Part shown: positions 9,577 to 53,891 of the stretch, one piece after another
Layout: each line of letters opens with the position of its first letter
Position numbering within the stretch: the first letter of the stretch is position 1
Origin: Aphrocallistes beatrix
Lineage: Eukaryota > Porifera > Hexactinellida > Sceptrulophora > Aphrocallistidae
Length of the DNA stretch: 64,000 nt
Reading direction: 5' to 3'
Assembly (NCBI GenBank): GCA_963281255.1
Contig: OY725506.1
Coordinates: 124,001-188,000 of the forward strand
Translations under genes and position numbers: made by a program
The notes under the pieces: generated by a model
The model's database searches: none
What the model was told of the DNA's origin: nothing
What the model saw: the letters and a program-made list of their open reading frames with translations, nothing else

Positions 9577-12500
9577 CTAATGCAACCACTTATCATAATA
9601 GGAGATAAACACAGGTACCACTGTATACTTTGACCTGTTCTAAATATACAAACAACAAACAAACAAACAAACAAACCTGATGCTGCTCTATTTCTGGTTT
9701 AACTTTCACCCAATTAAGAAGTGCTAACTCATCATCATCATCTCCAGTGTCAGAACTAACAGCGCTAATCTTAGACTCAGCTGTGCTAATTTTAGACTCA
9801 GGCAAGCTAAGGTTGGCAGGGAATGAAGTAGCTCTAGCATTGTCTGAACTAAGCAGAGTGGTTGCTGGTGTGTCCTCTGTGTCATTGGAATCTTCCGGAC
9901 CATTAGGCTTGAGGCGTCGAGATGGCACAGGTGGCCGTGATGTGTCGCTTGGAAGTGCCTGGAAAGGAGAAATGGGTTTGTAAGAATTCTCAGATTGTGT
10001 CGCGGAGTTAGGTGGCAGGCTGGGTGGTTTTGAAAGCTCTGATTTGATTGGTTGTTGCAGAGGAGGTGGAGGTAAGGAGGTCTTTATCGTCTCGAAAAGT
10101 TTGGAAGTTCTCTTGTCGAGATTTTGATAGAACTTCATTCCTAAACACACACAAACAATGACAATAAACAAGTAAACAAACAATCAATTGAGTTTATTAG
10201 TAAACAAATAAACAAACAAACAATTGCATACATGTCAACCTGAGACATGATAAGAGCGGAAGCGTTGAATAGAAATGTATTATACATAGAATTAAAAAAG
10301 CGGGACATAATGGGGAAATTTAATGAAAAAGCGGGACACTCTAGAAAATTAGCTCAATAGAAGAGTGAAAAAGCGGGACGTCCCGCCAAAAACGGGACAG
10401 TTGGCAAGTATACAATTGAGTTTATTAGTAAACAAACAAACAAACAAACAAGTACATATATATCCCTTACCATCCTTGAGACTGTCCTCGGTGGATCCCA
10501 ACCTCTTCCACGCCTCCACCAGTCCCTTGCAGACCCCCTCCCTCTCGCTCTTCACTCCGATCAGCTCCTTCCGCAGTCCGGCGAGATTAGCGTTGGTGTC
10601 CGTCATCGCCTAGCGACACAATGCCACTTAATCACACTGCATAGCACATACCACTGCCGTTGCTATGGAATGGATTGAATGGATCATTAGGGAATAGCGA
10701 TTATCCCAAATTATGGCATAACTATGACTGAATTGGAACTGCTAAGAGGAGAGCGACACTTTACGAGTGCCACCATATGGTGGCAGAATGATCATGCCAC
10801 TATCAGCCAGTGTCACTTGTGCTATTTATAGATTTGTTATAGACAGGTGAGATAATCCTAGTCATTATGTGTCGCTGTTATTAGTGGGGCGGAGTGGTAC
10901 CTTTACGATGTTGTCTTGAGCATCACAGTTCTGACGAATCAGAAGTGAGGTTTGCTTGTGTCGCTTCATGGCATTCTCGAACAGCTGATCTCTGCTCGAC
11001 TCCGGAGAAGTGATCAGCTGGACAGATATGTCGTCTGTGTCCATGTCATTGCGCAGCTGTTTCTCAAGCGTGGATCTATTTATAGGCACTTGATGAGCAT
11101 GGATCTATTTATAGTAATTCTAAACATAGCTGAATACCTCTGTGTCTGCATTTCCTCTATCTTCCCTACCAGCATGGCCAATCGGTTCTCTGACTGTTCA
11201 TCGAATGAGAGCGACACAAGGTCCAGCTTGGGGAGGGAGTTGATGAAAGTGGATTCTGGAACTGTCAAGAGTTTCAGTTTCGGTTTCAGTTCCTTCATCA
11301 CCTGGTGCAGCTCCTGGTTGGACTTGTCTCCTACAAACAGCTGATTGGTCAAACGAATAAAGATGAAAATGGATTCCAATTTCCATCTAATCTCAAACTA
11401 TTCTGTCGACTTAGGACACATTTGTGCCACTTAATGCCACTATAAGAATTCACACCTTGAGCTAGGAACTCATCAATCTTGTCAGCTTGTTTCTGGAACT
11501 CTTGAATCTGATTGGCTACTTCCGGGGCGTCGCGCGTCAAGTACATACAAATCTCGTCCAACTTCCTGTGAATCTGATTGGACATCTGCAGCACTGACTG
11601 CAGCAGCGCATCCATTCCCTCCACTCGGCCTTGATGCTCACTGGACGCCTCCGTTCTAATTTTAGCCACGTCAGCTGGTATGCTGACCTTGTCGTCTTTA
11701 TAGTTTAACACCTCCTCTATGTTCATCTTGGACAGGTACTCAGCTAAGTCTCTGTTTCTGTCCTGAATCGTGGCGCACACAGACCTCAGCAAGTTCGCCT
11801 TTTCTTCCGAGTACAGAGAGTTGGCCTCCAACACGGACATGGGGACCAACTTGGAGAATATGTCTCCTCCTAGGACAGATCTGTCAGAGATGGAGAACTC
11901 GATGGGTTTGACTAGAATGGCGCCTTGGATTGGCTCCAATTCTGGGACGGAAGGGACCTATAAATAGAATTTATAATTTTAGTTATTCTTAAGGAAAATA
12001 TAATAATAAATGTTCTAAATGGTAATGCGAAAATAGTTCGAATTGCAGGTTTAGGAAATAATTCGACATTTTATCATTAGGATTAATGGTGGTTTTCATG
12101 TGAACTATTTCCTTTTTTGGAAAGTCGAACTATTTCCACCATACCGTTCTAATTATAGATGTGTTCTACGGGATTCAGAATGGTATAAGTTCTAATTATA
12201 GACTGACCAGCTGGTGGTAGACCTGGTGGTTGGTCTGGACAGCTGACACGGATTTAGATTGGATAAGATCGGTCAAGTATTTGACAGCAGTCTTCATGGG
12301 TGGCAATTGTGCCTTGACAGCTTTATTCCCCGCCTGAATGCACTCCATAGCAACCTGAAAGAATGCTATCGCCTGTCCGTATTTAGAATCATCCTCTAGA
12401 GATACTCCTTGACAGAAGTAAGCAACGGATTGGTAGATATGGAATTTGGTCTGAAGGAACTTCTGCCAAGTTTTATTCCTCTTAGTCAGCTGAGCTCCGA

Positions 12501-13966
12501 CCTATAAATATAGCCACACTAAATATAGCCACACTAAATATAGCCACACTAAATATAGCCACACTAAATATAACCACACTAAATATAACCACACTAAATA
12601 TAGCCACACTAAATATAGCCACACTAAATATAGTAACATCAAGAACAATAACAATTCGATATCTCTTCCTAAACTTCTATTTATAGTCTTGGAATGCGCC
12701 TATTGGTCAGGCTAGAATGAATACCTGCAGGTCCAGGATGTCTATCGCCTTCTGGTACAAGGTAGACACTTCCCAAGCCACTTTGGACACCAAACTTGGT
12801 CTCTTCCTCTCCAACAGACTCTTCTCCACCATGCATTCCTGAGCTTGAGCCAGCATCAGGTTCTTGCAGAACGCCAATACCTCGGCACACATGTCTGTCT
12901 GTAAACAACAACAAGTAAACAAACAAACAAACAAATAAACAAACGATATCCCACTAAAATTAATTGAACAGATATTTCCATATAAGGATATCAGATTTCC
13001 AATCAATTCTTCCCACGAGTGAAGGAGGAATTGCCATGGTTACGTGTTGGGAGGATTGGCACCTGGTTGGGAGTAGGTGTGAAGTTGGTGGCGGTCTGGA
13101 GGAGGTAGAAGGCGCCAGCTGAGCACTGAAAGTGAGTGCAGGCGCCACGGAGCTCATCCTGGATATCCGCGCCCAGTCTGGAATGCAGGGCGCCCAAATT
13201 GAAGAGAACAGCTGACATCTCGAACTGGACTAGATTCTCAGCTGTCTCCTTCTCCGTGAAGGCGTCTCCCCAAATGAAAGTCACCTGGAGTGGGAGAGTG
13301 CTTAGTTAGAAGTGGCAGAGTGGCACTATGTGGTTAGAAGTGGCAGAATGGCACTATGGCATTAGACCCTCTAAGCCAGAGGACACATTTTGATGGCGGA
13401 TTTCATTGAATAAAACTATAATCAATTTGACCAATCAAATTGTAGCTTTTTCTCAGAAATAAATCAGGTCTGGAAGTGTGAATGAATGTTTTATGAGACA
13501 TGTTACTGACCAATCAACTCTAAGAGATTTATACAATTATGAAACCTTTGAACTTACTAAAATAGGACTAAATGGCAGTGACACAAAATGGCCAATAAAT
13601 GGCAGAAATATCTCGGAGTGGCACAAGGGACAGATTGGTGTGAAGTGGCAGACTTGCCTGAATACTAGATCTGGTGGCTGCGAACCGAGTGGGCAGGAGA
13701 CACAATTGGGCGTAGTATCTCCTCAGAGCAGATGTCCCGTGGCTGTCTCTGGAAGGCCGCACGGCTTGGTCTCTCAGCTGATTGAACTCTCTCACTTCTG
13801 GACGAAAGTGGGTCGGATCTTCTCCGTACTCAGTGCGGATGAGCTCAGCCAATGGGCTGGTCAGGTCGACACTGACACCTTGCTTGCTGGGGATGGTGAG
13901 CATGGGCAGTCTCAGCTGATCCATGAAACCCTGTGACACCTCTGTATTCGATTCAGTCGCACTCAT
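9577..13966 (-). CDS. BRO1-domain protein, HD-PTP (PTPN23)-like, lacking the phosphatase domain
   Basis: Ten exons join in consistent phase: 13658-13966, 13063-13284, 12725-12898, 12208-12501, 11456-11957, 11138-11330, 10901-11075, 10471-10609, 9677-10140, 9577-9639. They total 844 codons plus stop. Exons 1-4 encode the BRO1 domain, which in this family binds ESCRT-III CHMP4 at endosomes (FNLGALHSRLGA, CTHFQCSAGAFYLL, LMLAQAQECMVEKSL). Then come GDIFSKLVPMSV and YSEEKANLLR, which match HD-PTP better than ALIX, and a long coiled V-domain (EEMQTQRSTLEKQLRND). A Pro-rich acidic tail follows (SLPPPPLQQP, SRPPVPSRRL). HD-PTP is about 1,630 residues with a C-terminal tyrosine-phosphatase domain. 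Here the chain stops soon after the Pro-rich region and the next gene is NHL. A role in endosomal sorting is inferred. The first intron has a GC donor. Confidence 0.88.
12512..12633. repeat. 15-bp tandem array of splice-acceptor-like units inside an intron
   Basis: There are about eight copies of the 15-mer CTAAATATAGCCACA on the plus strand. On the sense (minus) strand each copy contains CTATATTTAG or TTATATTTAG, the same 10-base motif that ends many introns in this window. The array lies in the BRO1 gene intron between exons 3 and 4, immediately upstream of the real acceptor at 12502-12503. Confidence 0.9.
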
Positions 13967-17691: not shown

Positions 17692-17967
17692 TGAATCTGC
17701 ATAGTTAAGATCCCTCAGCAACAAAGATGCTGATGGAACCATTAGCTATGTAACTTAACACTCAAGGCCTAAGTTCAAAAATAACCTAAATTATTCAAAA
17801 ATTTGATAAGTTGAATTTAGTATGCAGTAATTGCAGAATTGCAATGAATCCTGGGCTTTATATGGAGTGGTAGTTAGCCATTTGATTAGCCAAAAATGCT
17901 AACAGTAAGACGATACAAGCAACTATTCCATTAGTATAAGTAGCGAATAGGAAAAGATTTGCAAACT

Positions 17968-20529
17968 ATGAAAGTTCAAGTCTTCCTTGGGTTCATATTT
18001 TGTTTACAGCTAGCTGTTTGTAAACAGAAGCTGCATATTCTGGGCTTATACCCAAACACTGGGACTGGGTGGACAGAGCCATATGTCATTCACAGTGCAG
18101 AGTTGGCCAAGCGACACATTGAACAAAACGGAACCATCCTCAAGAACTATGAGCTGCAAATTGATTGGCGGGACACTGAGTGCGATGGAGTGGTGGGTTT
18201 AAAGGCATTCTTCGACGCCATTGGGACAAACCGCGACAAGACATACCTAGCAGTGTTTGGAGGTGGCTGTGCGGTGGCTACGAGTGAAGTGGCAGCCATT
18301 TCGTCGCAGTATGGCCTCGTGCAGATCTCATATGCCTCCACGGCGCCCAATCTCGGAGACATAAATCTCTACCCACGGTTTGTATGGGGAGTTCCATCAG
18401 ACACTAACGCGGTTCCAGCCAGGGCGAAGTTCATCGTAGAAAACCGGTGGAAACGAGTGGCCATCATAAACCAGCAGAACCCAATCTTCGTCGCCAGTTC
18501 ACACAGCATGGAGTTCCTACTGGGAAATCTAAATATAGAATACAGAGTGGAGGACTTCGCAGCTGATGTAGCCAACCTCCCACTTGAGACCTCCGTGGAG
18601 AGGCTGGGAGATAACCTCATCAACAACGGGTACCGGATAATGATAGCTAACATGTACGAAGACGCAGCCATCAAGCTCTTCTGTGGTCTGCTAAAAAGAC
18701 CTAAATATAGACTGCTCCTGCACCCGCACTCCACCTGGATATTCCTGGGCTGGTTCACTGACAACTGGCACAATAAACCGGAAGTGCTCTCAGAGGTAAA
18801 CTGCACAGCCGAGGAGATTGTGGCAGTATCGAATGGCGCATTGGGATTCTTAGTGGCGCACAATGAAAGTAGCTTTAAAGGCGAAGTCAATGAGAAGAAA
18901 ACCATATCGAAATACACCACAAAACAACTGTACCAAATGTACAGAAATATAACCCTTCAAAACAACGGAAATAATGTCGAGGAATTTGCCGTAAGGTCTG
19001 ATGTCCATGATGCTTACGTGTACGACTCTCTGTGGACGCTAGCACTGGCTCTGCATCAAGCTGAAGAAAGTGGCTTCAACCTCTCTGCCATCTCCCAAAA
19101 GGAGATACTCACCGACACAGAATACTTCACACCTCTCAGTAACTTTTCAACGCAGGTTTACAAAGGAATGTTGAAGCAGCATTTCCAAGGTTGGAGCGGA
19201 AATGTCGAGTATAGAGGACAAGAACGTGTCTATGATCTGGTGCAGATTCTAGAATTCGTGAATGGCAGTCTGGAATACCGCAGTGAAGTGACTAACATTC
19301 CTGAGAATAGTTCTGGTTACACAGATGTTTCCCGCATGGGGGTTGTCCTAAACTCATCTTATCCATTTAAGTTCTGGAATAGTGAAGTGGCATCTGATGG
19401 CATAGAGGCACACGACATACCAGTTGAAGTGGTATCTGTCATCTACTTGATTTCATTCTTATTGGTGGCATACATTAGTTTCTACATTGGTTTCATTGTC
19501 ATTGGGAAACTTAGGAATCTAGAATCCATCCGGAATTCATCTCCCACTCTCACTTCCATCATCATTTGTGGGAACTACTTTTTGGTGTTGGCAAGCATTT
19601 TCCTCATTTCCAACGATAGAATCGTGAGGGGAACAGGACAAGAGTTCCTCTCAAATGTGTCCGGAGAACCCGAAACCACTGAAATGTGTGACACTCATTG
19701 CTGTAAATTCCTTTGCATGCTTCCAGTCTCCTTGATACTCGTGGCATCCAGTGTCATTTTAGGCGCCATGATGTCGAAGGCCGCGCTTATTTATGTTGTT
19801 GTTGTAAAGGGAAAAATTAGCTTGAACAAATGCTTAAATTATATTCTAACCACAACTTGGCCATTCCTCCTCGCCACTGTTGACACCTTGTTCGTGCTGC
19901 TTTGGTCACTCGTTGGTCCACTCGTGATCAAATCAGAGGTGTTACCTTCTGGACTTCAGGATCCACCCTTTTTCAGTGTTATTCAGTGTGGCATTTCCTC
20001 GGAGAATTCCCTAGCAACCACTGTCTTCATTAGTATTCTGATAATCTACAAATCCTTTATCGTGTTGGTTGGTCTTGTGATGGCATACAATCTCCGAAAC
20101 GTGGAGAGACAATCACTCCGTTATGGAAACACCATCTCGTGGACAATGTACAACATCACAGTCTTCACACTCATCCTCATTCTCTCCTTCTTCTTGATAC
20201 AGAGCTACGATGTTAAAATTAGCATAGTTTCATTCCTAATCTTAGCAACAGTCTTCCTAACTGTCACCATCATCGGGCTCCCTCCACTCTACTATTCGAT
20301 CCCATCTTTTAAACCCAAAAGCGAATCAAATATTGGAAATATACCCGAAATAGTTCAAGATAAAGAAATGTATGAAAAGAGGATTGGAGCGCTAGAGAAG
20401 GACAACGATGAGTTGAAGGATACCAATGGGCACATGGTTAGGCGCATGACATTGAGTGGGATTGATTTTCCCGCTCAGTGGAACAAATCGACCAGCATCG
20501 AATTTTTTGAGAATGATGAAGCTATTTAA
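17968..20529 (+). CDS. GABA-B-like class C G-protein-coupled receptor, copy A
   Basis: This is an intronless receptor of 853 residues. I choose the ATG at 17968 because its MKVQVFLGF signal peptide aligns with the starts of the paralogues. After the signal peptide (about 1-18) comes a Venus-flytrap ligand domain (about 20-460) with KLHILGLYPNTGTGW, FGGGCAVATSEVA and FLGWFTDNW. The seven-helix domain starts near 485 and ends near 772 (YLISFLLVAYISFYIGF, SLRYGNTISW, PLYYSIP). There is no Cys-rich linker, which fits GABA-B rather than mGlu receptors. A short coiled coil near 798-830 (KRIGALEKDNDELKD) matches the tail that lets GABA-B subunits dimerise. The Ser-rich ligand loop of GABBR1 is replaced by GCAVATS, so the ligand may not be GABA. 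Confidence 0.9.
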   Translation: MKVQVFLGFIFCLQLAVCKQKLHILGLYPNTGTGWTEPYVIHSAELAKRHIEQNGTILKNYELQIDWRDTECDGVVGLKAFFDAIGTNRDKTYLAVFGGGCAVATSEVAAISSQYGLVQISYASTAPNLGDINLYPRFVWGVPSDTNAVPARAKFIVENRWKRVAIINQQNPIFVASSHSMEFLLGNLNIEYRVEDFAADVANLPLETSVERLGDNLINNGYRIMIANMYEDAAIKLFCGLLKRPKYRLLLHPHSTWIFLGWFTDNWHNKPEVLSEVNCTAEEIVAVSNGALGFLVAHNESSFKGEVNEKKTISKYTTKQLYQMYRNITLQNNGNNVEEFAVRSDVHDAYVYDSLWTLALALHQAEESGFNLSAISQKEILTDTEYFTPLSNFSTQVYKGMLKQHFQGWSGNVEYRGQERVYDLVQILEFVNGSLEYRSEVTNIPENSSGYTDVSRMGVVLNSSYPFKFWNSEVASDGIEAHDIPVEVVSVIYLISFLLVAYISFYIGFIVIGKLRNLESIRNSSPTLTSIIICGNYFLVLASIFLISNDRIVRGTGQEFLSNVSGEPETTEMCDTHCCKFLCMLPVSLILVASSVILGAMMSKAALIYVVVVKGKISLNKCLNYILTTTWPFLLATVDTLFVLLWSLVGPLVIKSEVLPSGLQDPPFFSVIQCGISSENSLATTVFISILIIYKSFIVLVGLVMAYNLRNVERQSLRYGNTISWTMYNITVFTLILILSFFLIQSYDVKISIVSFLILATVFLTVTIIGLPPLYYSIPSFKPKSESNIGNIPEIVQDKEMYEKRIGALEKDNDELKDTNGHMVRRMTLSGIDFPAQWNKSTSIEFFENDEAI

Positions 20530-21270
20530 CCAAGTCGCTACAGCGTAGTGTATTAGGAGTGTGTGTATTTTAGCTCGATTTGAGTTCACACCTTTGTTTA
20601 TTAGTTTTGTATACTTTCTAGAAAGTTATTAGGAGTGTAAGCTTATGTGTTTGTAAATATTTTACAACATTATTGCAAATGTGAATATTTAAATGTATTA
20701 TTCAAATAAAATGGGGGAAACACAGCACTTGTAAGGCAAGGATTTATGGGACAAAGGAATTGCAGCCACTTTACTATAAATAGCTGGGAAATACAGGACA
20801 TCTCCTCATCACATAACATAACATTGTTATTAATGGAAAAGGAAATGCAGTGAGTTGTTGGGAGCAGAACACGGCTATAATGCTGTGGATTTAGTCTGTT
20901 AGACTCTCAAAAAATAGATTGCGTACATACCTCTGAACTGAGACGTTTCTAGGGTGGCAACATGGGCAGTGGCCTTCCAGATTTTTTGCTTGACTCCCTT
21001 TGTTATCTTTCCCAATACAAATTCTCTTCCAGATACGTTTAACCATGTCATGTAGCAACATAAGTATATTACTAAATTAGAATATACATAAATTAGCCGA
21101 TTTGCGTTCAATTAAAAATAACACTGCATGTAATGTGGTATCTTATTACAAATGCATGACAATGAGGGAAATATGATAAGGTACATTACCCGCTCAGGTT
21201 ATCTATAAATAGATAGTAACATATAGTTATTCACTTTGAGTTCCTTCTAATATTTCATTAAAAACAAATT
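20530..21270. other. Spacer between receptor copies A and B, with duplicated promoter region
   Basis: From about 20876 this spacer is homologous to the region upstream of copy C (from about 24834), sharing the GTACATACCTCT and TTATTCACTTTGAGTTCCTT blocks. The duplication therefore carried its 5' region. I see no gene here. Confidence 0.6.
21203..21212 (+). promoter_or_regulatory. Possible TATA box of receptor copy B
   Basis: CTATAAATAG lies about 60 bases before the ATG of copy B. The duplicated region before copy C reads CTACAAATAT here (about 25169-25178), a weaker TATA. The motif also resembles local splice acceptors, so its role is uncertain. Confidence 0.35.
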
Positions 21271-23832
21271 ATGAGAGTAGAAATATTCTTAACTGTATTT
21301 GCTTGTTTACAAGTTGCCGTTTGTAAACAGAAGTTGCATATTTTGGGTATTTACCCTAACACGGGACTAGGATGGACTGAACCTTACGTCACATACTCTG
21401 CTGAACTAGCCAAGAGACACATTGGACAGAACGACACCATCCTCAGGGACTACGAGCTGGAAATTGATTGGTGGGACACTCAGTGCGATGGAGGGATTGC
21501 AACAAAGAACTTCATCGATGCGCTGGCTCTGAATCGAGACAAGACATACCTGGCTGTGTTCGGAGGTGGATGCGCAGTGGCGACCAGTGAAGTGGCACAG
21601 ATCTCATACAGGTATGGACTGGCACAGATCGCATACGCCTCCACCGCACCCAATTTAGGAAACCGAGACTTATACCCCAAGTTTGTACGGGGAGTGCCAT
21701 CCGACATAAGTGCAGTGCCAGCACGTGCTAAGTTCATCGTAGAACAGGGCTGGAAACGAGTGGCCATCATAAACGAACAACACCCAATCTTCGTGGCTAG
21801 CTCGCATAACATGGAGGTGGTGCTGGATGATCTGGAGATAGAGTATAGGGTGGAGGACTTCGCACCTGACGGTCTGATCCCCTTGGAACAACAAGTGAGA
21901 ACCATCGCTAGCAACCTGGAGACCTACAGAGTCGTCATAGCCAACATGTACGAAGATTCAGCCATTGAGTTGTTCTGTTTGCTGCACAAGCAAAACCAGT
22001 TCCGATTGCTGCACCCCTACACCACGTGGATATTTTTAGGCTGGTTCACTAGCCAATGGAATGACAAACCCGAAGTCCTTAGGAATGTGGGATGCACAGC
22101 TGAGGAAGTGGCAGCTGTGTCAAATGGCGCATTGGGATTCTTAGTAGCGCACAATGCGAGTAACTTTAAGGGAGATGTGGACTCAGGAGAAACCATATCG
22201 AAATACACCACAAAACAACTGTACCAAATGTACAGAAATATAACCCTTCAGAACAACGGAAATAATGTCGAGGAATTTGACATAAGGTCTGATGTCCATG
22301 ATGCTTACGTGTACGACTCTCTATGGACGCTAGCACTGGCTCTGCATCAAGCTGAAGAAAGTGGCTTCAACCTCTCTGCCATCTCCCAAAAGGAGATACT
22401 CACCGACACAGAATACTTCAATCAAAATAGTCCCTTTTCACAAGAGGTTTATGATGCGATGTTGAATGTCAAATTTGAAGGTTGGACCGGTGGAGTTAAG
22501 TTTGGAGGAAATAGTGGACATGAACGTGTCTATGATCTGGTGCAGATTCTAGAATTCGTAGATGGCAGTCTGGAATACCGCGGTGAAGTGACTAACATTC
22601 CTGAAACCAGTTCTGGTTACACAGATGTTTCTCGCATGGGGTTTGTCCTAAACTCATCTTATCCTTTTAAGTTCTGGAATAGTGAAGTGGCATCTGATGG
22701 CATAGAGGCACACTACATACCAGTTGAAGTGTTATCTGTCATCTACTTGATTTCATTCCTATTGGTAGTATACATTAGTTTCTACATTGGTTTCATTGTC
22801 ATTGGGAAACTTAGGAATCTAGAATCCATCCGGAATTCATCTCCCACTCTCACTTCCATCATCATTTGTGGGAACTACTTTTTGGTGTTGGCAAGCATTT
22901 TCTTCATTTCCAACGATAGAATCGTGAGAGGAACAGGACAAGAGTTCCTCTCAAATGTGTCCGGAGAGCCGAGCAGCACAGAGGTGTGTGAAAATGACAC
23001 CTGTAAATTCCTTTGCATGTTTCCGGTGTTCCTCCTACTCGTGGCATTCAGTGTCATTTTAGGCGCCATGATGTCGAAGGCCGCGCTTATTTATGTTGTT
23101 GTTGTCAAACTGCAAATCAAACCCAACAAAAAGCTCAATTACATTCTAGCGATCAGCTGGCCATTCCTCCTCGCCACTATTGACACCTTGTTCGTTCTGC
23201 TTTGGTCACTCGTTGGTCCACTCGTGATCAAATCAGAGGTGTTACCTTCTGGACTTCAGGATCCACCCTTTTTCAGTGTTATTCAATGTGGCATTTCCTC
23301 GGAGAATTCCCTAGCAACCACTGTCTTCATTAGTATTCTGATAATCTACAAATCCTTTATCGTGTTGGTTGGTCTTGTGATGGCATACAATCTCCGAAAC
23401 GTGGAGAGACAATCACTCCGTTATGGAAACACCATCTCGTGGACAATGTACAACATCACAGTCTTCACACTCATCCTCATTCTCTCCTTCTTCTTGATAC
23501 AGAACTACGATGTTAAAATTAGCATAGTTTCATTCCTAATCTTAGCAACAGTCTTCCTAACTATCACCATCATCGGGCTCCCTCCACTCTACTATTCGAT
23601 CCCATTCCTTAAGCCCAAATCGGTTGCTAACCCTGCCTCAGTTAAAAATAGTATTGTCCCTGATAGGAAAATGCTAGAGAAATCTATCGTTGCACTGCAG
23701 AAGGACAACCAAGAGCTAGGTGTGATGAGCACTGAAATGGTCCGCAAGATGAGTGTGAGTGGCATGGACATTCCTCCTGAATGGATGTCTCGTTTGATAA
23801 GTGTGGACGAGAGCGAAGAATCCAAACCCTAA
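21271..23832 (+). CDS. GABA-B-like class C G-protein-coupled receptor, copy B
   Basis: This is an intact intronless receptor of 853 residues with signal peptide MRVEIFLTVFACLQVAVC, Venus-flytrap domain, seven membrane helices and a C-terminal coiled coil (MLEKSIVALQKDNQEL). It is nearly identical to copy A from TM1 through TM7 but clearly diverged in the ligand domain and in the cytoplasmic tail. The extracellular loop cysteines around VCENDTCKFLC and SVIQCGISS are kept. The ligand loop again reads GCAVATS. It is the closest full-length relative of truncated copy C and inverted copy D. Expected role: ligand-gated heterotrimeric G-protein signalling at the plasma membrane. Confidence 0.9.
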   Translation: MRVEIFLTVFACLQVAVCKQKLHILGIYPNTGLGWTEPYVTYSAELAKRHIGQNDTILRDYELEIDWWDTQCDGGIATKNFIDALALNRDKTYLAVFGGGCAVATSEVAQISYRYGLAQIAYASTAPNLGNRDLYPKFVRGVPSDISAVPARAKFIVEQGWKRVAIINEQHPIFVASSHNMEVVLDDLEIEYRVEDFAPDGLIPLEQQVRTIASNLETYRVVIANMYEDSAIELFCLLHKQNQFRLLHPYTTWIFLGWFTSQWNDKPEVLRNVGCTAEEVAAVSNGALGFLVAHNASNFKGDVDSGETISKYTTKQLYQMYRNITLQNNGNNVEEFDIRSDVHDAYVYDSLWTLALALHQAEESGFNLSAISQKEILTDTEYFNQNSPFSQEVYDAMLNVKFEGWTGGVKFGGNSGHERVYDLVQILEFVDGSLEYRGEVTNIPETSSGYTDVSRMGFVLNSSYPFKFWNSEVASDGIEAHYIPVEVLSVIYLISFLLVVYISFYIGFIVIGKLRNLESIRNSSPTLTSIIICGNYFLVLASIFFISNDRIVRGTGQEFLSNVSGEPSSTEVCENDTCKFLCMFPVFLLLVAFSVILGAMMSKAALIYVVVVKLQIKPNKKLNYILAISWPFLLATIDTLFVLLWSLVGPLVIKSEVLPSGLQDPPFFSVIQCGISSENSLATTVFISILIIYKSFIVLVGLVMAYNLRNVERQSLRYGNTISWTMYNITVFTLILILSFFLIQNYDVKISIVSFLILATVFLTITIIGLPPLYYSIPFLKPKSVANPASVKNSIVPDRKMLEKSIVALQKDNQELGVMSTEMVRKMSVSGMDIPPEWMSRLISVDESEESKP

Positions 23833-25240
23833 CCCATTCGTTTATGTGTGTATAGTTACCCCACCCATACAAGCTGAATTGGAAACTTGTTTTAATGTTT
23901 TATTGCTCATTTGATTAGTTTGTATTTGCTGTTAAGCTTTTAGAATATATAAATTGCTTCAATATAGTAAATAGGGTTTGCAAAATGGATTTACTTGCTA
24001 CTTACTACCTTTTTATTTTTTTAGAGGAAAATAAAAAGTAGTAAGTAAATATTCTGTATGGCGAGCAAATGAAAAGTAACAAGTAAATTTCCTGGACACC
24101 TTGAGGAACTGGACACGGTTAAATTAAGAAAATTCTGATTCTGAAATGCTCAAATATTTCTGAAAATCGCTCGATGCACACTCGTTTCGGTCTTACACTA
24201 CACGATCAATAATTTCCTATTCTCACGACAATTAAATGCCGGTCAAAAAATAAGTAGTGAGTGAGTAAAATTGAAACTAAAATGGAGGAAAAAATAAAGT
24301 TGCAAGTAAACGGTTGGCCAAAAAAATCCGTATAACTTTTTTGCCAGTTCTGGAATCCCTGGTTCGCAAGGCCGTAGCCGCCACAGCCCACAAGGTGTGA
24401 AGTGGCCCGGTTGAAACCGGATCAGCGGGACCGGTGGCTAAGTCTCTGATTCGGTCTACCCTTATAAGGAATGAACTTTCGAATTTGGTTCATGGATGTA
24501 TTCACAATAATAGGACACATCCTAGCGGTTAATATGGTGTTGAGCGAATATTGAGGCTTGTTGGAGGAGATCTCCAATGGAATTTTTCTAGTTCTGCTCC
24601 TACATAGGAGCTACACTATCCAGGCTCTTCATATATCTAGTGCTGTGAAAATCTAACTGACCAACTCTAAACAAACTTGAAGCAGACCTTCCTTATATGG
24701 TGCAGATTAGGGAAGGTGGAGGCAACTCTCCTTTCTTTTCTACCAATTTAAATAATTGACAACTAGGGTAACCTGGAGGAAGAAATAATGTTTTCTTCTG
24801 AAGAGTCATTGATTCTATCATGCTTCAATTCTATAATGCTGTGGATGTATTCAGTTTGACTCTCGAGAAATTTCACCAAAAAATAGATTGTGTACATACC
24901 TCTACACTGAAATCTTTCTAGGCAACATGGGGAGTGGCCTTCAAGATTTTTAGCATGCTTTCATTTGATCTTTTTCATACTACAAATTCTCTTCCAGATA
25001 CGTTTAACCATGGTATGTAGCTACATACTAAGTACATTACTAAAAAGGAATATACACAAATTAGACGATTTGCTTACAACTAAAAGGAACAGCATGTAAT
25101 GTGGTATCTTATCACAAATGCATGGGAATGAGGGAAATATGATAAGGTACATTACCCGCTCAGGTTATCTACAAATATATAGTAACAAATAGTTATTCAC
25201 TTTGAGTTCCTTCTATGTATAATTTTATCAAAAACAAATT
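23833..25240. other. Spacer between receptor copies B and C
   Basis: It holds an inverted repeat at 23986-24052 and, from about 24834, the duplicated upstream region of copy C. A GC-richer patch at 24360-24450 contains GGTTGAAACC, but no tRNA fold is apparent. No gene is seen. Confidence 0.5.
23986..24052. repeat. Short inverted repeat
   Basis: ATTTACTTGCTACTTACTAC with TTTTTATTTT on the left pairs with AAAATAAAAAGTAGTAAG and TAAAT on the right around a loop of under ten bases. Related pieces (AAAAGTAACAAGTAAAT) follow at about 24070. It looks like a small foldback element. Confidence 0.7.
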
Positions 25241-26850
25241 ATGAGAGTTGAAATCTTCTTAACTGTATTTGCTAGTTTACAAGTTGCCGTTTGTAAACAG
25301 AAGTTGCATATTTTGGGTATTTACCCTAACACTGGACTAGGATGGACTGAACCCTACGTCACATACGCTGCTGAACTAGCCAAGAGACACATTGGACAGA
25401 ACGACACCATCCTCAGGGACTACGAGCTGGAAATTGATTGGTGGGACACTCAGTGCGATGGAGGGATTGCAACAAAGAACTTCATCGATGCGCTGGCTCT
25501 GAATCGAGACAAGACATACCTGGTTGTGTTCGGAGGTGGATGCGCAGTGGCGACCAGTGAAGTGGCACAGATCTCATACAGGTATGGACTGGCACAGATC
25601 GCATACGCCTCCACCGCACCCAATTTAGGAAACCGAGACTTATACCACAAGTTTGTACGAGGAGTGCCATCCGACATAAGTGCAGTGCCAGCACGTGCTA
25701 AGTTCATCGTAGAACAGGGCTGGAAACGAGTGGCCATCATAAACGAACAACACCCAATCTTCGTGGCTAGCTCGCATAACATGGAGGTGGTGCTGGATGA
25801 TCTGGAGATAGAGTATAGGGTGGAGGACTTCGCACCTGACGGTCTGATCCCCTTGGAACAACAAGTGAGAACCATCGCTAGCAACCTGGAGACCTACAGA
25901 GTCGTCATAGCCAACATGTACGAAGATTCAGCCATTGAGTTGTTCTGTTTGCTGCACAAGCAAAACCAGTTCCGATTGCTGCACACCTACACCACGTGGA
26001 TATTTTTAGGCTGGTTCACTAGCCAATGGAATGACAAACCCGAAGTCCTTAGGAATGTGGGATGCACAGCTGAGGAAGTGGCAACTGTGTCAAATGGCGC
26101 ATTGGGATTCTTAGTGTTGCACAAAGAAAGTAACTTTAGAGGCGATGTAGACTCAAGTGAAACCATATCGAAATACACCACAAAACAACTGTACCAAATG
26201 TACAGAAATATAACCCTTCAGAACAACGGAAATAATGTCGAGGAATTTGACATAAGGTCTGATGTCCATGATGCTTACGTGTACGACTCTCTGTGGACGC
26301 TAGCACTGGCTCTGCATCAAGCTGAAGAAAGTGGCTTCAACCTCTCTGCCATCTCCCAAAAGGAGATACTCACCGACACAGAATACTTCAATCAAAATAG
26401 TCCCTTTTCACAAGAGGTTTATGATGCGATGTTGAATGTCAAATTTGAAGGTTGGACCGGTGGAGTTAAGTTTGGAGGAAATAGTGGACATGAACGTGTC
26501 TATGATCTGGTGCAGATTCTAGAATTCGTAGATGGCAGTCTGGAATACCGCGGTGAAGTGACTAACATTCCTGAGAATAGTTCTGGTTACACAGATGTTT
26601 CCCGCATGGGGGTTGTCCTAAACTCATCTTATCCTTTTAAGTTCTGGAATAGTGAAGTGGCATCTGATGGCATAGAGACACACTACATACCAGTTGAAGT
26701 GGTATCTGTCATCTACTTGATTTCATTCCTATTGGTGGTATACATTAGTTTCTACATTGGTTTTTTTGTCATTGGAAAACTTAGGAATCTAGAATCTATC
26801 CAGAATTCATCTCCCACTCTCACTTCCATCATCATTTGTGGGAACTACTT
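24834..26850. repeat. Segmental duplication of receptor copy B and its 5' region
   Basis: About 2 kb is homologous to 20876-22878: the upstream spacer, the signal peptide, the full ligand domain and TM1-TM2. Similarity ends abruptly after GGGAACTACTT at 26850, where copy B continues TTTGGTGTTGG and this copy continues ACTCACAGTG. Confidence 0.85.
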
Positions 26851-26887
26851 ACTCACAGTGATCTCAGTGAACGTTCTGTCACAATAA
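25241..26887 (+). pseudogene. GABA-B-like receptor copy C, truncated after TM2
   Basis: The frame is open for 548 residues from the ATG at 25241, with signal peptide, complete Venus-flytrap domain, TM1 and the start of TM2 (SIIICGNY). It then leaves receptor sequence at 26850/26851 and stops ten codons later at CAATAA. Five of the seven helices and the coiled coil are missing, so it cannot signal as a GPCR. The ligand-binding half has no other lesion, and the product could in principle be an anchored ligand trap or dominant-negative partner. That is inference. The sequence after the junction belongs to a receptor-phosphatase remnant in another frame. Confidence 0.8.
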
Positions 26888-28492
26888 TCTGGAAACTCGA
26901 GGAGAATCTTCCTGAAGAAGCAAAGCAGAGATTTAACATTACTTACCTTGCAAATGGAAAGTTGAACACTATTACAACAACAGATAGCTCTTATGAGCTG
27001 ACAGACCTAAACCCAGGACAAACATACACTATATTTGTTATTCTATCTTACGCGTATACTCTAAAAACAACAAATAAAGCCATTACCATCAACACCCCAC
27101 ACAGACATGTTGCACTTACCACAATAATTCCATCTTTAGTGTCGGGGGTGGTATTCATTTTTGTTGTCATACTCATAGTAGCAGTAAGTGTTGCATTTTG
27201 TAATGTAAATAGAAGAGTAAACAAAAATATTAAAGCTCTTAAGAGAAGTGGTATAATGCCCCCGAAGAAATTAAACGTTCATTCCACCACCACGACAAGA
27301 TATCAGGAAATAAGTGGAGGGCGAACGGAACCAAAAGTGCAAAAGAGGAATGTTTGCTATGCAATTCTTGACCTTGAACCTCAATGCGATGAGAAAACAG
27401 CTGATATCACTAGAACCGACACGGAGTACGCCACAATAAATGTGACTTCACTTGTGGGTGATGAAGATGAGGGCAACCTAAATTTAGAACAGATTAAACA
27501 AGATGAAAAACGAATATACTACTCTAACCTAGCCATCATCCCTGACAAAAAAACAGACGCACATAAGCCATTAAATTTAGATTCCAGACTTAATGAGTAC
27601 CATGGATACTCTAGAGAAGCAGAGGCTGCTGATAATGACGTGTACTATACTCCCATGGGCGCTCTAAACTCGGAACAACTTCCTGCACCACCAATATACC
27701 ACTCAACCAATTCTGTAAAACTTATAAGCAACGCATTGAAATAGGCATAGGTGAAGAATCAATGATTAAAAAAGAATTCGACAAACTGACGTTAACTACA
27801 AAACAATCGTTTGAGAATGTAGGTGAACTCCCTTTTGAAGATAACGGCGTGTTGATAGAGTCACAACAGCCAACTGGGGACTATGTAAATGCCACTTTCG
27901 TCAACAACGCTAGTTACATCGACAACTGTCAATTCATCGCTACAGTACACCCTGCAGCTGAACACTGCTAGAGTTCCTGCAAATGCTCTATCAAACTGAG
28001 GCCAGCATGGTAGTGATGCTAGCCAGCAGAAAGGAGAAGGCTAAAATAGTCGGGGGAATCTCAGACAAGAAAGTTTATTGGCCAAAGAAGGAAATGAATC
28101 TGGTCTGTGATCCTTTTTCAGTTAGCATTCTTAGTTCTTCCGATTCTAATGTGTTCATCAAGCAAGAGCTGTTGATTACAAACAATGTTGAAAAGAAGAA
28201 GAGGACTGTAATACAATGTATCTCGTCGGTTTGGAACGAAGATGGCACTGCTTCCAGCCTTGAACACATAGTGGCCCTCGTTTCTCGTATCATTAGACAG
28301 AAAGAGACGGCGCCACTTAAACCCATCATAATCCACTGCGCTGATGGTATCTCAAAGACTGGCGTTCTACTGACAGTCTACAATACAGTTCAGGATCTGA
28401 ATGGGAAGAAGAGTGTAGACATCTACAATGCTGTGAGGAATTTGAGGAGGCAAAGGATGAAAATGGTTCCAACATTGGTTACTCAATCATAA
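26851..28492 (+). pseudogene. Receptor-type tyrosine phosphatase remnant, intronless, 5'-truncated and frameshifted
   Basis: The first frame (to 27744) encodes a fibronectin type III-like domain (SVTIIWKLEENL, SYELTDLNPGQTYTIFV), one transmembrane helix near 27115-27200 and a cytoplasmic stretch. The phosphatase domain follows in a second frame (about 27715-27970; GDYVNATFVNNA), then in a third (about 27975-28492). The signature loop reads HCADGISKTG: the catalytic Cys is kept but the Arg of the CX5R motif is Lys. The WPD-loop position reads SVWNEDG. Both changes are typical of inactive D2-type domains. There are at least two frame breaks, no introns and no N-terminal ectodomain. This suggests a retrocopy or a fragment joined to receptor copy C. 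Confidence 0.7.
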
Positions 28493-30311
28493 TTGAATTC
28501 AGTGCTACTCAGCACTCTTCTCCCGTTTGAATATCTGATGGGTCTGATTGAGAAACTAACGAGTTACATATTAGTCCAAAAGTTATTATCGCCATAAAAA
28601 AAGTAAAATTTGACAAATTTTGAAGATAATCCTTGTTCAATATTGACTAAAAAATGTCAAAAAAATTGAAAACAAAAATTTGCTAAAAATATACCTTAAA
28701 CTTGATTAAAACTCATAAATTAATCCAGAATTCTGGAATAGCAAATTTCTTTTTCACTTGCTAAATTATTTTTTATTAACTTTTTTCATGTTTTAACAAA
28801 TTCGTATTTTCTAGAATTGCTACAATTACTTGCTATGCTGTGCTGAACGAGTACTGCTCAACTCATCTCTAAAGTGAATATCTAGCCTCAACACAACTCC
28901 TGGGAAATGATACAGATACGCTAGCTTGAGAGAGTTTTAAACTTTTCAAGCCAGATCATTGCTTTGCTGCTTCTCTTTGTATCATACTTAATTACTAAAT
29001 ATTGAACTCACTGAGAGTAGTGTTAACCGTTGGAAGGTTAAGTATAATTTCCTGTGTATTTCCATGTATACATATTCTCGGCATTATTGGATAAATGAAA
29101 TCAGATGTAAACCACACCTAACGTAATACAATCCACTAGAATGTTGAAGCCATGGGCACCCAATGGAAATAAAGATACCCATGTCTCCCCCACCTTTCCC
29201 ATGTGGCTACCATCCCACAAAGTGGCGCTATATACTCAAGCATGCCATGTCTGGATGGTAGCTGCATGGGCAAGGTGGAGGCAAACTTGTTTTTTAAGAC
29301 TTTTAGACATAATATAAGTGTTTTAATAGTAAAGAGTTAATATTAACATCCATTCTTATCATGTTACAAACATTCTAGTCAAATTCATCTTTATAGTTGG
29401 TCCATCAGGACTCAGGACGATTTGTAAGCAGAGAGGAAAATTCTGGATCATGCCATGTGACATGATTGCTATGGAATATAGCGCTTGTCTTCATCAGGTT
29501 TCTTTATCTTTCCTCTGAGCAGCAGTTTATATGAGACTCCTGAACTAGAACAAAGATATTATGAATGTCTTCAGTTCATGTTCTCGTAAGAACAGGAATG
29601 GTAAAAAGGATTCGAGTATGGGGTCTGGGAGGCGTCATTAAAAGGGCAGAGTTTGACTTTACACAAATTTTCCAATAAAAATTGACCTCAATAAACAAAG
29701 ATAGTCAGTTTGAAGAAATATTGCGTAAGACAATGGAAACTCCAAACACTGCCTCTTCCTCTGAAATTGCATTTTCCTTCTAATCTAGACAAGCGCTAGC
29801 TCGCTTACGTACTCGGCTTGCCAGTGCCTCAGATCCACACCAGCCAACCAATAGAATCGACTGATCAACGCGCCCGTAGGTCGCCTGCATAGCATACTTG
29901 CATTACCTAGCAACGGAATAGATAGAGAAGCATTATTCAACTTTGTTTGGCGGTGGACTCTATAACAATGTTCCTATGTCCTGTAGACCCCTCCACTAAC
30001 CGCAATATAAGGACCCTGTAGTACCAGCTTGTGAACCACTGAACTGGAGACACTCTCAACGGTTCATCCATGGTTTCAAGGGTGCATTCAGATATACACA
30101 GCAATCATTATTAGACATTAGAATCTATCCAGCTATATACTACTCTGACCAATGGAATCTGATTGGAAACTATTATCGAAGTTGAGCAGAGAAGAATATT
30201 CATACAAGACAGGAATAAATAATCAGAAATGATAACAACAACAAGGTCTCTAAAACAAAGTGCACATTCCAATTGACACTTGAGAAAGGGGAGTAAATAA
30301 GCAACAACAAG
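28493..30311. other. Intergenic region between the phosphatase remnant and inverted receptor copy D
   Basis: About 1.8 kb of AT-rich DNA. It contains a foldback at about 29186-29284. The part at 30312-30433 is the out-of-frame continuation of receptor copy D. I see no other gene. Confidence 0.45.
29186..29284. repeat. Foldback inverted repeat
   Basis: CCCCCACCTTTCCCATGTGG and CTACCATCC on the left pair with GGATGGTAGCTGCATGGG and CAAGGTGGAGG on the right. The loop is about 37 bases. It resembles a small MITE or hairpin element without coding capacity. Confidence 0.75.
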
Positions 30312-30433
30312 CTAAGAATAGGAAAAAGCTGTTCCGTTTTCTGTCACACTGGACAGTCGAGTGTCCTTCGAACTCGGTGGGAAGTCCAAGTCACTCAAAC
30401 TCAGTTTTCTTTCCATTTCCACATTCAAAGCCT

Positions 30434-32875
30434 TCAACTCCTGTCCTTCTGCAGCGCAACGATAGATTTCTCTAGCATTTTCCTATCAGGAACAATGCTA
30501 GTTATAACTGCAGCAGGGTTAGAAACCGATTTGGGCTTAAGGAATGGGATCGAATAGTAGAGTGGAGGAAATCCGATGATGGTGACAGTTAGGAAGACTG
30601 TTGCTAAGATTAGGAATGAAACTATGCTAATTTTAACATCGTAGCTCTGTATCAAGAAGAAGGAGAGAATGAGGATGAGTGTGAAGACTGTGATGTTGTA
30701 CATTGTCCACGAGATGGTGTTTCCATAACGGAGTGATTGTCTCTCCACGTTTCGGAGATTGTATGCCATCACAAGACCAACCAACACGACCAAGGATTTG
30801 TAGATTATCAGAATACTAATGAAGACTTTGGTTGCTAGGGAATTCTCCGAGGAAATGCTACACTGAATAACACTGAAAAAGGGTGGATCCTGAAGTCCAG
30901 AAGGTAACACCTCTGATTTGATCACGAGTGGACCAACGAGTGACCAAAGCAGCATGAACAAGGTGTCAACAGTGGCGAGGAGGAATGGCCAGCTGATCGC
31001 TAGAATGTAGTTAAGCCTTTTGTTGAGATTGATTTGTAGTTTGACAACAACAACATAAATAAGCGCGGCCTTCGACATCATGGCGCCTAAAATGACACTG
31101 GATGCCACGAGTAGGAGGAACACCGGAAACATGCAAAGGAATTTGCAGGTGTCATTTTCACACACCTCTGTGCTGCTCTGCTCTCCGGACACATTTGAGA
31201 GGAACTCTTGTCCTGTTCCTCTCACGATTCTATCGTTGGAAATGAAGAAAATGCTTGCCAACACCAAAAAGTAGTTCCCACAAATGATGATGGAAGTGAG
31301 AGTGGGAGATGAATTCTGGATGGATTCTAGATTCCTAAGTTTCCCAATGACAATGAAACCAATGTAGAAACTAATGTATGCCACCAATAGGAATGAAATC
31401 AAGTAGATGACAGATAACACTTCAACTGGTATGTAGTGTGTCTCTATGCCATCAGATGCCACTTCACTATTCCAGAACTTGAACGGATAAGATGAGTTTA
31501 GGACAAATCCCATGCGGGAAACATCTGTGTAACCAGAACTGGTTTCAGGAATGTTAGTCACTTCACCGCGGTATTCCAGACTGCCATCTACGAATTCTAG
31601 AATCTGCACCAGATCATAGACACGTTCATGTCCACTATTTCCTCCAAACTTAACTCCACCGGTCCAACCTTCAAATTTGACATTCAACATCGCATCATAA
31701 ACCTCTTGTGAAAAGGGACTATTTTGATTGAAGTATTCTGTGTCGGTGAGTATCTCCTTTTGGGAGATGGCAGAGAGGTTGAAGCCACTTTCTTCAGCTT
31801 GATGCAGAGCCAGTGCTAGCGTCCATAGAGAGTCGTACACGTAAGCATCATGGACATCAGACCTTATGTCAAATTCCTCGACATTATTTCCGTTGTTCTG
31901 AAGGGTTATATTTCTGTACATTTGGTACAGTTGTTTTGTGGTGTATTTCGATATGGTTTCACTTGAGTCTACATCGCCTCTAAAGTTACTTTCTTTGTGC
32001 AACACTAAGAATCCCAATGCGCCATTTGACACAGCTGCCACTTCCTCAGCTGTGCATCCCACATTCCTAAGGACTTCGGGTTTGTCATTCCATTGGCTAG
32101 TGAACCATCCTAAAAATATCCACGTGGTGTAGGTGTGCAGCAATCGGAACTGGTTTTGCTTGTGCAGCAAACAGAACAACTCAATGGCTGAATCTTCGTA
32201 CATGTTGGCTATGACGACTCTGTAGGTCTCCAGGTTGCTAGCGATGGTTCTCACTTGTTGTTCCAAGGGGATCAGACCGTCAGGTGCGAAGTCCTCCACC
32301 CTATACTCTATCTCCAGATCATCCAGCACCACCTCCATGTTATGCGAGCTAGCCACGAAGACAGGGTGCTGTTCGTTTATGATGGCCACTCGTTTCCAGC
32401 CCTGTTCTACGATGAACTTAGCACGTGCTGGCACTGCACTTATGTCGGATGGCACTCCTCGTACAAACTTGGGGTATAAGTCTCGGTTTCCCAAATTGGG
32501 TGCGGTGGAAGCGTATGCGATCTGTGCCAGTCCATACCTGTATGAGATCTGTGCCACTTCACTGGTCGCCACTGCGCATCCACCTCCGAACACAGCCAGG
32601 TATGTCTTGTCTCGATTCAGAGCCAGCGCATCGATGAAGTTCTTTGTTGCAATTCCTCCATCGCACTGAGTGTCCCACCAATCAATTTCCAGCTCGTAGT
32701 CCCTGAGGATGGTGTCGTTCTGTCCAATGTGTCTCTTGGCTAGTTCAGCAGAGTATGTGACGTAAGGTTCAGTCCATCCCAGTCCAGTGTTAGGGTAAAT
32801 GCCCAAAATATGCAACTTCTGTTTGCAAATAACGATCGGTAGCAAAAGTAGAGTCAAGAAGACACCAACTTTCAT
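30434..32875 (-). CDS. GABA-B-like class C receptor, copy D (inverted; tail frameshifted)
   Basis: This is an intronless frame of 813 residues from the ATG at 32875, with its own signal peptide (MKVGVFLTLLLLPIVIC). The ligand domain is nearly identical to copies B and C, sharing the LVLHKESNFRGDVDSS stretch with C. All seven helices are present. The frame ends early at ALQKDRS inside the C-terminal coiled coil. Beyond the stop, the other frame continues to a stop at 30312 with QELKALNVEMERKLSLSD, clearly homologous to the tails of A and B. A loss of four bases near 30443-30446 explains this. The receptor should still fold, but without the coiled coil and distal tail that family members use for heterodimer assembly and trafficking. 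Confidence 0.85.
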   Translation of the reverse strand: MKVGVFLTLLLLPIVICKQKLHILGIYPNTGLGWTEPYVTYSAELAKRHIGQNDTILRDYELEIDWWDTQCDGGIATKNFIDALALNRDKTYLAVFGGGCAVATSEVAQISYRYGLAQIAYASTAPNLGNRDLYPKFVRGVPSDISAVPARAKFIVEQGWKRVAIINEQHPVFVASSHNMEVVLDDLEIEYRVEDFAPDGLIPLEQQVRTIASNLETYRVVIANMYEDSAIELFCLLHKQNQFRLLHTYTTWIFLGWFTSQWNDKPEVLRNVGCTAEEVAAVSNGALGFLVLHKESNFRGDVDSSETISKYTTKQLYQMYRNITLQNNGNNVEEFDIRSDVHDAYVYDSLWTLALALHQAEESGFNLSAISQKEILTDTEYFNQNSPFSQEVYDAMLNVKFEGWTGGVKFGGNSGHERVYDLVQILEFVDGSLEYRGEVTNIPETSSGYTDVSRMGFVLNSSYPFKFWNSEVASDGIETHYIPVEVLSVIYLISFLLVAYISFYIGFIVIGKLRNLESIQNSSPTLTSIIICGNYFLVLASIFFISNDRIVRGTGQEFLSNVSGEQSSTEVCENDTCKFLCMFPVFLLLVASSVILGAMMSKAALIYVVVVKLQINLNKRLNYILAISWPFLLATVDTLFMLLWSLVGPLVIKSEVLPSGLQDPPFFSVIQCSISSENSLATKVFISILIIYKSLVVLVGLVMAYNLRNVERQSLRYGNTISWTMYNITVFTLILILSFFLIQSYDVKISIVSFLILATVFLTVTIIGFPPLYYSIPFLKPKSVSNPAAVITSIVPDRKMLEKSIVALQKDRS

Positions 32876-33340
32876 AGTAATTGTATGAATTTTCGTTTAG
32901 GAACTTTTTACAGATATTTATATCAGGTGAGCCATCCACATAATGGATGTGCTGTAAAACAGCTTTAATGACCTACAAACTATTTTCCTTGGATCAGATA
33001 AGCGAATTTGCGGGACAAATCACAGGAATACGAAATGTATCGAATATATGAATATAACATTACCTAATCTCCAGATCAGTGAGGAGAATTTAAGGTGGAA
33101 ATGACAGAATTAGAAATTGTTGTTTGAAGACAGATTACACGTCTGCGATACGAAATCAATAATGTCCTAACATTCCACACATGTAGCAGTAGTGATATTT
33201 GATTGGTTGATAAATACTGGTACAAAAGCTAACAGTAATTGTTCACTTTTACAAAGCAAGCTAACAGAAGTGAGTAAACAAATGAGCTAAATATAGTATC
33301 AAGATGAAGTTCTCACGACTACCTGTGAGTATGGGTTAAT
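32876..33340. other. Intergenic spacer between copy D and phenylalanine hydroxylase
   Basis: About 465 AT-rich bases between the divergent receptor start and the convergent hydroxylase 3' end. Apart from the TATA-like string near 32920 nothing specific is visible. Confidence 0.4.
32916..32927 (-). promoter_or_regulatory. Possible TATA box of receptor copy D
   Basis: The minus strand reads GATATAAATATC about 45 bases before the ATG at 32875. It is a plausible core promoter, distinct from the 5' region shared by copies B and C. Confidence 0.35.
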
Positions 33341-53588: not shown

Positions 53589-53891
53589 CAGTTGACTCCG
53601 CTTAATAGGGCAACTGTTTAATCGGGTCAACCGCTTAATAGGGTCACTGTTTAATCGGGTCAACCACTTAATAGGGTCACTGTTTAATCGGGTCAACCGC
53701 TTAATATGGGCACTGTTTAATCGGGTCAACCGCTTAATAGGGTCACTGTTTAATCGGGCCACTTTTGGCAGGACCGGAATAGCTCTCACACATAGAAGCT
53801 AATACAAAATATTTTCGGTTAATAAGGTTCTCCGCTTAATCGGGGCAAAATGTCCTCTGACCGATGTGACCCTATTAAGTGGAGTCGACTG
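53589..53891. mobile_element. pogo/Tigger-like MITE, copy 2, with internal tandem amplification
   Basis: The ends CAGTTGACTCCGCTTAATA and ATTAAGTGGAGTCGACTG are inverted repeats flanked by TA. The right half matches the copy at 37999-38169. The left half carries about four extra copies of a roughly 33-base unit (TTAATAGGGTCACTGTTTAA with TCGGGTCAACCGC), making this copy 303 bases rather than 171. Confidence 0.9.

Follow-up and report, generated by a model that had tools for sequence, protein, structure and literature searches.

Gene structure around the array

The minus strand of the window, the whole 64-kb stretch of DNA analysed here, carries a gene whose joined exons encode a protein matching Pfam BRO1 (E 5.7e-96), with PTPN23/HD-PTP (3rau) as the nearest solved structure (E 2e-64). 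Judged by these matches, it is an HD-PTP-like BRO1 gene. All features of this gene described below are on the minus strand. Exon 3 (12725..12898), placed by the gene HMM and by PTPN23 homology across the junction, ends ...KAIDILDLQ in phase 0, while exon 4 (12208..12501), placed by the gene HMM and the PTPN23 alignment, starts VGAQLTKRNKTWQKF.... Between them lies a phase-0 GT-AG intron of 223 nt (12502..12724; sequence and gene HMM), with its donor GT at 12724-12723 and its acceptor AG at 12503-12502. The PTPN23 alignment crosses the 12725/12501 junction (...KAIDILDLQ|VGAQLTKRNKTWQKF...) with a one-residue gap, and because the homology spans this junction we place the start of exon 4 at 12501 and take 12502 as the coding acceptor. 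This AG (12502..12503, TATTTATAG|GTCG), which sets the coding frame, is also well scored by a position weight matrix (PWM), as detailed below. Homology to PTPN23 runs on across the following junction, where a CTATTTATAG box (11958..11967) forms the acceptor of the next intron (11958-12207).

Gene models came from a self-written gene finder trained on 264 kb, comprising the 64-kb window and C20:188001-388000, which independently recovered intron 12502-12724. We used its third settings, earlier ones having produced a run-on gene or over-long introns. The run used joins adjacent genes in the window into a single model, so only junctions, and not gene boundaries, were taken from it. Elsewhere in the window, a 1134-codon open frame at 58402-61806 encodes what we take, by eye, to resemble an NTPase with leucine-rich repeats.

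A 15-bp tandem array ends at the acceptor

Tandem Repeats Finder identified an array in this intron (12505..12633) with a period of 15 bp and 8.6 copies of the sense unit TGTGGCTATATTTAG (unit match 98%, score 244), confirming both the intron and the roughly eight 15-base units that the initial annotation had described in it. Eight units end in AG: five are exact copies of TGTGGCTATATTTAG, two have the sequence TGTGGTTATATTTAG and the first has TGTTACTATATTTAG. The ninth, TGTGGCTATATTTATAG, measures 17 nt up to the exon, this last unit having two extra bases. The array boundary lies 3 nt inside the intron, and the sequence of exon 4 is unrepeated.

A 25-mer of the array, searched with up to three mismatches, gave eight overlapping matches at a single locus in the 100.5-Mb genome. 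The single 15-mer unit occurs at two further places, C20:209365, where it is an acceptor in the gene model, and C19:3177082, where it lies just past an apparent donor (by eye) in a myosin-like gene. In a myosin-like gene on C19, another intron (L001:672-836) carries units of about 33 bp in tandem that hold TTTACTAG. This intron terminates in the acceptor-like TTTACAG and, by eye, is possibly a second acceptor array.

The copies resemble acceptors on the intron side only

The array presents eight decoy AGs, each followed by TGTG (12519..12625, with the G at 12519, 12534, 12549, 12564, 12579, 12594, 12609 and 12624). We scored these with a matrix built from the 106 other confident acceptors, in which the intron side covers positions -20 to -1. 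On this side the copies reach 9.0–9.6 bits (69th–72nd percentile of the 106), except for the first at 8.2, and the real acceptor reaches 8.2 bits (63rd percentile). With positions +1 to +3 included, the copies score 3.0–4.4 bits (10th–18th percentile) against 11.0 bits (73rd percentile) for the real site. This gap of at least 6.6 bits is wholly exon-side, with TGT following the decoy AGs and GTC the real one, and the preference behind it is partly circular, since the matrix derives from the self-trained gene finder. The earlier description of each unit as a copy of the local acceptor consensus thus holds for the intron side, at 8.2–9.6 bits, and fails on the exon side.

Of the 107 confident acceptors, 57 have G at +1, 37 have A, 8 have T and 5 have C, and those with T include 2 of the 14 box-type acceptors considered below. 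An upstream AG within 17 nt is common, being found at 30/106 acceptors. Strong decoys are rarer: when AGs with an intron side of at least 8.0 bits were counted in the last 130 nt of the 78 confident introns that measure 150 nt or more, none turned up in 66, one in 11 and eight in the array intron, the sole intron of the 78 with more than one.

Splicing to the eight upstream AGs would extend exon 4 by 17, 32, 47, 62, 77, 92, 107 or 122 nt. Every extension equals 17+15k nt, which is 2 mod 3 and out of frame; seven of the eight extended products read CGYI-stop, and the +17 product meets a stop after 10 codons. With a shifted frame and an early stop in every product, these AGs cannot give a productive isoform ladder, and the extensions are not the multiples of 15 nt that had been anticipated. 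Non-productive RNAs from the copies are possible.

Candidate branch point and predicted hairpin

A search of introns for a branch-point motif returned no strong motif, the motif being ill defined here. The array intron has no yUnAy with its A at 12 to 137 nt from the acceptor, and TTGAT (12638..12642), a candidate branch-point-like sequence, is the nearest canonical one lying far enough upstream of the real acceptor to be usable. For the 84 introns of at least 120 nt, the median distance to the nearest yUnAy (with its A no closer than 12 nt) is 23 nt, and seven of them, among them the array intron, have it at 138 nt or more. The branch point might also be a non-canonical one within the array, such as the A in the TTTAG of the last full unit, some 19 nt before the exon.

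The array is predicted to form a hairpin (12507..12625) with 14 of the 15 nt per unit paired, a prediction drawn from fold energy, AG pairing and an antisense control. A fold energy of -74.9 kcal/mol (z -6.5) was obtained for the sense intron, a value reached by 0/200 dinucleotide shuffles, and one of -17.3 kcal/mol for the antisense intron; the intron sequence reversed folds nearly equally well (-73.4). As GUGUGGCUAUAU self-pairs when G-U pairs are allowed, the array would close as a single long G-U-rich hairpin, the predicted stability of which rises with copy number.

Eight copies of the unit give -60.1 in sense and -4.7 in antisense, and shuffled-unit controls of eight copies have a mean of -31.0 (sd 12.5), with 2/500 as low as -60.1. 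With the CTATATTTAG half fixed, TGTGG is among the 12 of 1024 five-mer spacers that give 14-of-15 pairing and ranks 21 of 1024 by energy. By count, 14-of-15 pairing also arose in 3470/20000 shuffled units and 351/20000 random units, and 1 of 34 other intronic arrays (period at least 9) had an equal shuffle fraction, at 1/60. Some tandem repeats fold equally well by chance, and the hairpin, a post-hoc idea proposed once the fold was seen, is suggestive.

AG pairing was computed from a fold that extends 60 nt into each flanking exon. Six decoys (107, 92, 77, 47, 32 and 17 nt upstream) have probabilities of being unpaired of 0.18 for the A and 0.01 for the G, and the first (122 nt upstream) has 0.31 and 0.04, so that the predicted stem covers seven of the eight cryptic 3′ sites, with their G unpaired at 0.01–0.04. 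The remaining decoy (62 nt upstream) is in the loop, with its A unpaired at 1.00 and its G at 0.16. The real AG is at the base of the hairpin, its A unpaired at 0.92 and its G at 0.00, the latter also being predicted to pair once exon sequence is included. The initial annotation had suggested that the copies could act as a spliceosome landing pad; the predicted fold would hide most of them instead of exposing them. Starting at the A of TTGAT, the path to the real AG measures 137 nt along the chain and 20 steps through the predicted fold, and the path to the first decoy measures 15 by either route. Sitting at the 5′ edge of the hairpin, 15 nt from the candidate branch point, this first decoy could compete with the real acceptor.

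Origin of the array and other intronic arrays

Duplication of the intron 3′ end is the simplest origin, given that the array runs into the real acceptor. This is in part what the initial annotation had proposed as replication slippage of the acceptor, and the acceptor-like intron side of the units points the same way. Introns hold 49 of the 135 tandem arrays in the 264 kb, and of these 49 six end within 10 nt of an acceptor (this one included) and five within 10 nt of a donor. We also asked, for the 93 of the 107 confident introns with fitting length, how often a terminal 18-mer is echoed inside the intron at 15/18 or better. Echoes were found for 2/93 acceptors, 3/93 donors and 41/465 interior positions, the two acceptors being those of the array intron and of intron 46859-47176. 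A general class of acceptor minisatellites is therefore unsupported in the 264 kb, arrays being about equally frequent at donors. The search for other acceptor-motif minisatellites suggested earlier yielded, within this sequence, one more intron that repeats its acceptor region. With acceptor arrays infrequent as a class in the 264 kb, the present array looks like one local event.

In the second intron, 46859-47176 of the window, a 16-bp repeat (GTATTTATGTTTGTTT) stops 2 nt before the acceptor. A rule drawn by eye, that (TTTG)n occupies the sense strand at intron ends, did not hold up, as introns hold arrays of both orientations. A CGCTTAATAGGGTCAC-type repeat, dispersed as well as tandem and transposon-like by eye, occurs at 53598-53758 of the window and in L001 and L007.

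The acceptor half of the unit is an enriched palindrome

The acceptor half of the array unit, CTATATTTAG, is a CTA-W4-TAG word, a palindromic 10-mer. This box has 328 strand hits (164 sites) in the 264 kb against 23.7 expected from an order-3 chain, a 13.8-fold excess. Over the same 264 kb, nine other spacings CTA-Wn-TAG (n 0–3 and 5–9) reached 0.6–2.5-fold and 11 other palindromic frames 0.4–2.6-fold. CTA-W4-TAG was the clear top of the 3+W4+3 words with an expectation above 5, with a runner-up at 3.9-fold, and the excess is much smaller in near variants (CTAW4TAG 13.84-fold, TTAW4TAG 1.92, CTAW4TAA 1.9, TTAW4TAA 1.70). Beyond 3 nt, the flanks carry at most 0.05 bit of information.

The window contains 76 boxes, 70 of them outside the array, and the array intron has a further one upstream of the array (12677..12686, minus strand). 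By gene model, the boxes of the 264 kb fall in introns (95), intergenic sequence (48) and exons (21). No other close tandem of boxes was found in the 264 kb; beyond four 15-bp spacings, the next closest was 18 bp.

Two exonic boxes lie in the single-frame 861-codon receptor gene at 17944. It is the first of four related receptor-like open frames at 17944-32896 of the window (79–97% DNA identity) and the only one of them with boxes, at 18529 and 18701. An origin of the box by insertion was not supported in this copy, one of its boxes differing from three paralogs by 3/10 substitutions in a gap-free alignment; the second falls in a stretch that aligns poorly among the paralogs. Boxes were kept between paralogs in 12/18 cases against 5.5 expected, a result that is only suggestive, as the 18 include reciprocal pairs.

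Boxes also coincide with acceptors. We counted 14/107 confident acceptors of this type against 0.39 expected from the other 93, although the count may be too high if the gene finder is drawn to boxes; the box acceptor at 11958 is backed by the PTPN23 alignment. After non-acceptor boxes there was no sign of G/A avoidance (sense 14/27, antisense 10/27).

Genome-wide, we found 11838 box sites against 4740 for a reversed control, which is about 2.6 times the expectation scaled from the 264 kb, and CTATTTATAG has 3701 matches against 564 for its reverse. The local excess in successive 33-kb pieces of C20 was 35, 34, 21, 5, 12, 17, 7 and 3-fold (order-2 chain), dropping inward, unevenly. On C19, at 3.17 of 3.48 Mb, a 10-kb piece that was picked for holding the 15-mer match has 11 boxes; counts for three other 10-kb pieces were 0 and 2 (C1, near 1.0 Mb) and 0 (C10).

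Two longer box words fall within 0.7 Mb of a contig end in 28/43 and 23/33 hits, against 26.5% expected (p 1.3e-7 and 2.7e-7), counts that for the first word include the window's own 11958 box and for the second leave out 34/67 hits forming one cluster at C6:5.286-5.529 Mb, itself near an end. The bias holds at cut-offs of 0.3, 0.5 and 1.0 Mb (p about 8e-5 or less), and some hits are far from ends, for example C1:9.07-9.42 Mb. A control word had 1 of 7 hits within 0.7 Mb of an end, and a second box word, CTAAAAATAGAGC, had 4 of 8, too small a number for mapping. The bias of boxes to contig ends is provisional, resting on few words and samples, and gene density or base composition may contribute. 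At C6:5286542-5529194 we observed 34 copies of CTATTTATAGGAG in about 243 kb, their strand passing from mostly minus to plus; these may be a large tandem family.

The consensus of MEF2 sites is YTAWWWWTAR. All eight AG-ending units (six with CTATATTTAG and two with TTATATTTAG) fit this consensus, and the genome encodes a MADS-box protein that is MEF2-type as read by eye. In a paper on MEF2, CTATTTATAG is given as the MRE sequence of an enhancer (PMC11234010). The enrichment in the 264 kb departs from the degenerate consensus in its strict C and G ends, which should be needless for a MEF2 site. A thin search of the open-licence literature turned up no animal genome reported to carry such a motif, and the enrichment may be more novel than the array.

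Interpretation

We favour, with about even confidence, the reading that the array is an acceptor-derived minisatellite that is tolerated, its copies being disarmed by a poor exon side and by the hairpin while 12502 is used. The register of the array with the acceptor and the 98% unit match suggest that it arose recently by tandem duplication of the intron 3′ end. Each copy would then bear an acceptor-like 3′ end that is rarely used, because its TGTG exon side scores poorly and because of the predicted hairpin. In silico, this hairpin pairs seven of the eight decoy AGs, leaves the real AG at its base and would cut the path from the candidate upstream branch point from 137 to 20 nt. Homology points to 12502 as the acceptor in use. 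The array would thereby be a tolerated passenger, possibly a length-sensitive one, and any copy that was used would give an out-of-frame transcript with an early stop.

A serious if less probable reading is that of a plain neutral minisatellite, in which slippage noise accounts for the array, the hairpin plays no part, and splicing stays at 12502 through exon-side mismatch and exon definition alone. It is favoured by full-site scores that are already at least 6.6 bits apart, all on the exon side, and by intronic arrays being common, with donors hosting them about as often as acceptors do, whether counted by array ends or by echoes. What speaks against it is that, with no yUnAy at 12–137 nt, a scan from the upstream branch point would meet eight AGs first, so that something should hide them. 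This argument is weak, as a nearest yUnAy at such a distance is shared by six further introns of the 84 and the branch-point motif is ill defined.

More tentatively, the array may be an outgrowth of a eukaryotic highly iterated palindrome. Here the box, at up to about 35 times chance toward chromosome ends and in exons, introns and spacers alike, would have a role at the DNA level (for example in meiotic pairing, recombination or chromatin); ending in a U-rich TAG, it would keep supplying 3′ splice sites, and in this intron a tandem, self-hiding ladder of them.

It is improbable that the array is a regulated, unproductive ladder, in which some copies are used to make early-stop transcripts and copy number or temperature tunes the output. 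The intron-side strength of the copies, equal to that of the real site, the early stops in all eight products and the rise of predicted hairpin stability with copy number would suit such a device, whereas the poor exon side, the predicted burial of most copies and the finding of the array at one locus only argue against it. Least probable of all is that the unit was selected, if at all, as a tandem of MEF2-like CTA-W4-TAG boxes with acceptor likeness as a by-product, for although the box is enriched at this spacing only, occurs in intergenic sequence and predicted exons and fits the MEF2 consensus, and although the genome encodes a MADS-box protein read by eye as MEF2-type, the enrichment is tighter than that consensus and the 264 kb hold no other close box tandem.

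The intron sets up a natural experiment in 3′ splice site choice, with eight AGs of equal intron-side strength placed between TTGAT, the nearest usable branch-point-like sequence, and the real site, and two separable features, the exon side and the predicted hairpin, that could reject them. It suggests a way in which an acceptor minisatellite could be tolerated during growth. Should the box enrichment be confirmed, it would amount to an unexplained signal in base composition, one that extends into coding exons and influences the choice of sequences used as splice sites.

Comparison with known systems

The box invites comparison with the highly iterated palindromes of cyanobacteria (PMC4390886), as far as the available text describes them. 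In the 264 kb, CTA-W4-TAG is like them a short palindrome of high frequency, with 328 against 23.7 strand hits and, beyond 3 nt, nearly uninformative flanks. Unlike them, it occurs in a genome that is animal-like, judged by eye from its gene content, and is concentrated in part of it, the genome-wide excess being about 2.6-fold only.

The array itself shares with tandem alternative splice sites (PMC8055015) the presence of several candidate acceptors in close tandem. That class rests on RNA-seq; here, the spacing is that of a 15-nt repeat and the sites are candidates seen in the sequence. In yeast, intron stems mask cryptic 3′ sites and have been proposed to bring the acceptor closer to the branch point (PMC12350175, citing Meyer et al. 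2011). If its candidate branch point is the one in use, the present intron would be similar in having a predicted stem between branch point and acceptor, cryptic AGs inside it and a short effective distance. It differs in that the stem is a tandem repeat, the gene is animal-like, the branch point is a candidate and the structure is a prediction.

The closest kind of array that we found is the 'mirage' minisatellite of the amphioxus Adh3 and globin genes (PMC3087553), described in the accessible text as boundary-spanning arrays in which many units carry AG/GT signals, with Adh3 units of 10–72 bp. As in amphioxus, a tandem array lies near an exon-intron boundary, here with the AGs of eight units acceptor-like on the intron side. 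In contrast to the mirage arrays, which span the boundary, this one leaves 3 nt before the exon, takes no exon sequence into its repeats and is predicted to form a self-hiding hairpin. The mirage arrays reportedly do not interfere with regular splicing, which agrees, by analogy, with the reading of the present array as a tolerated one.
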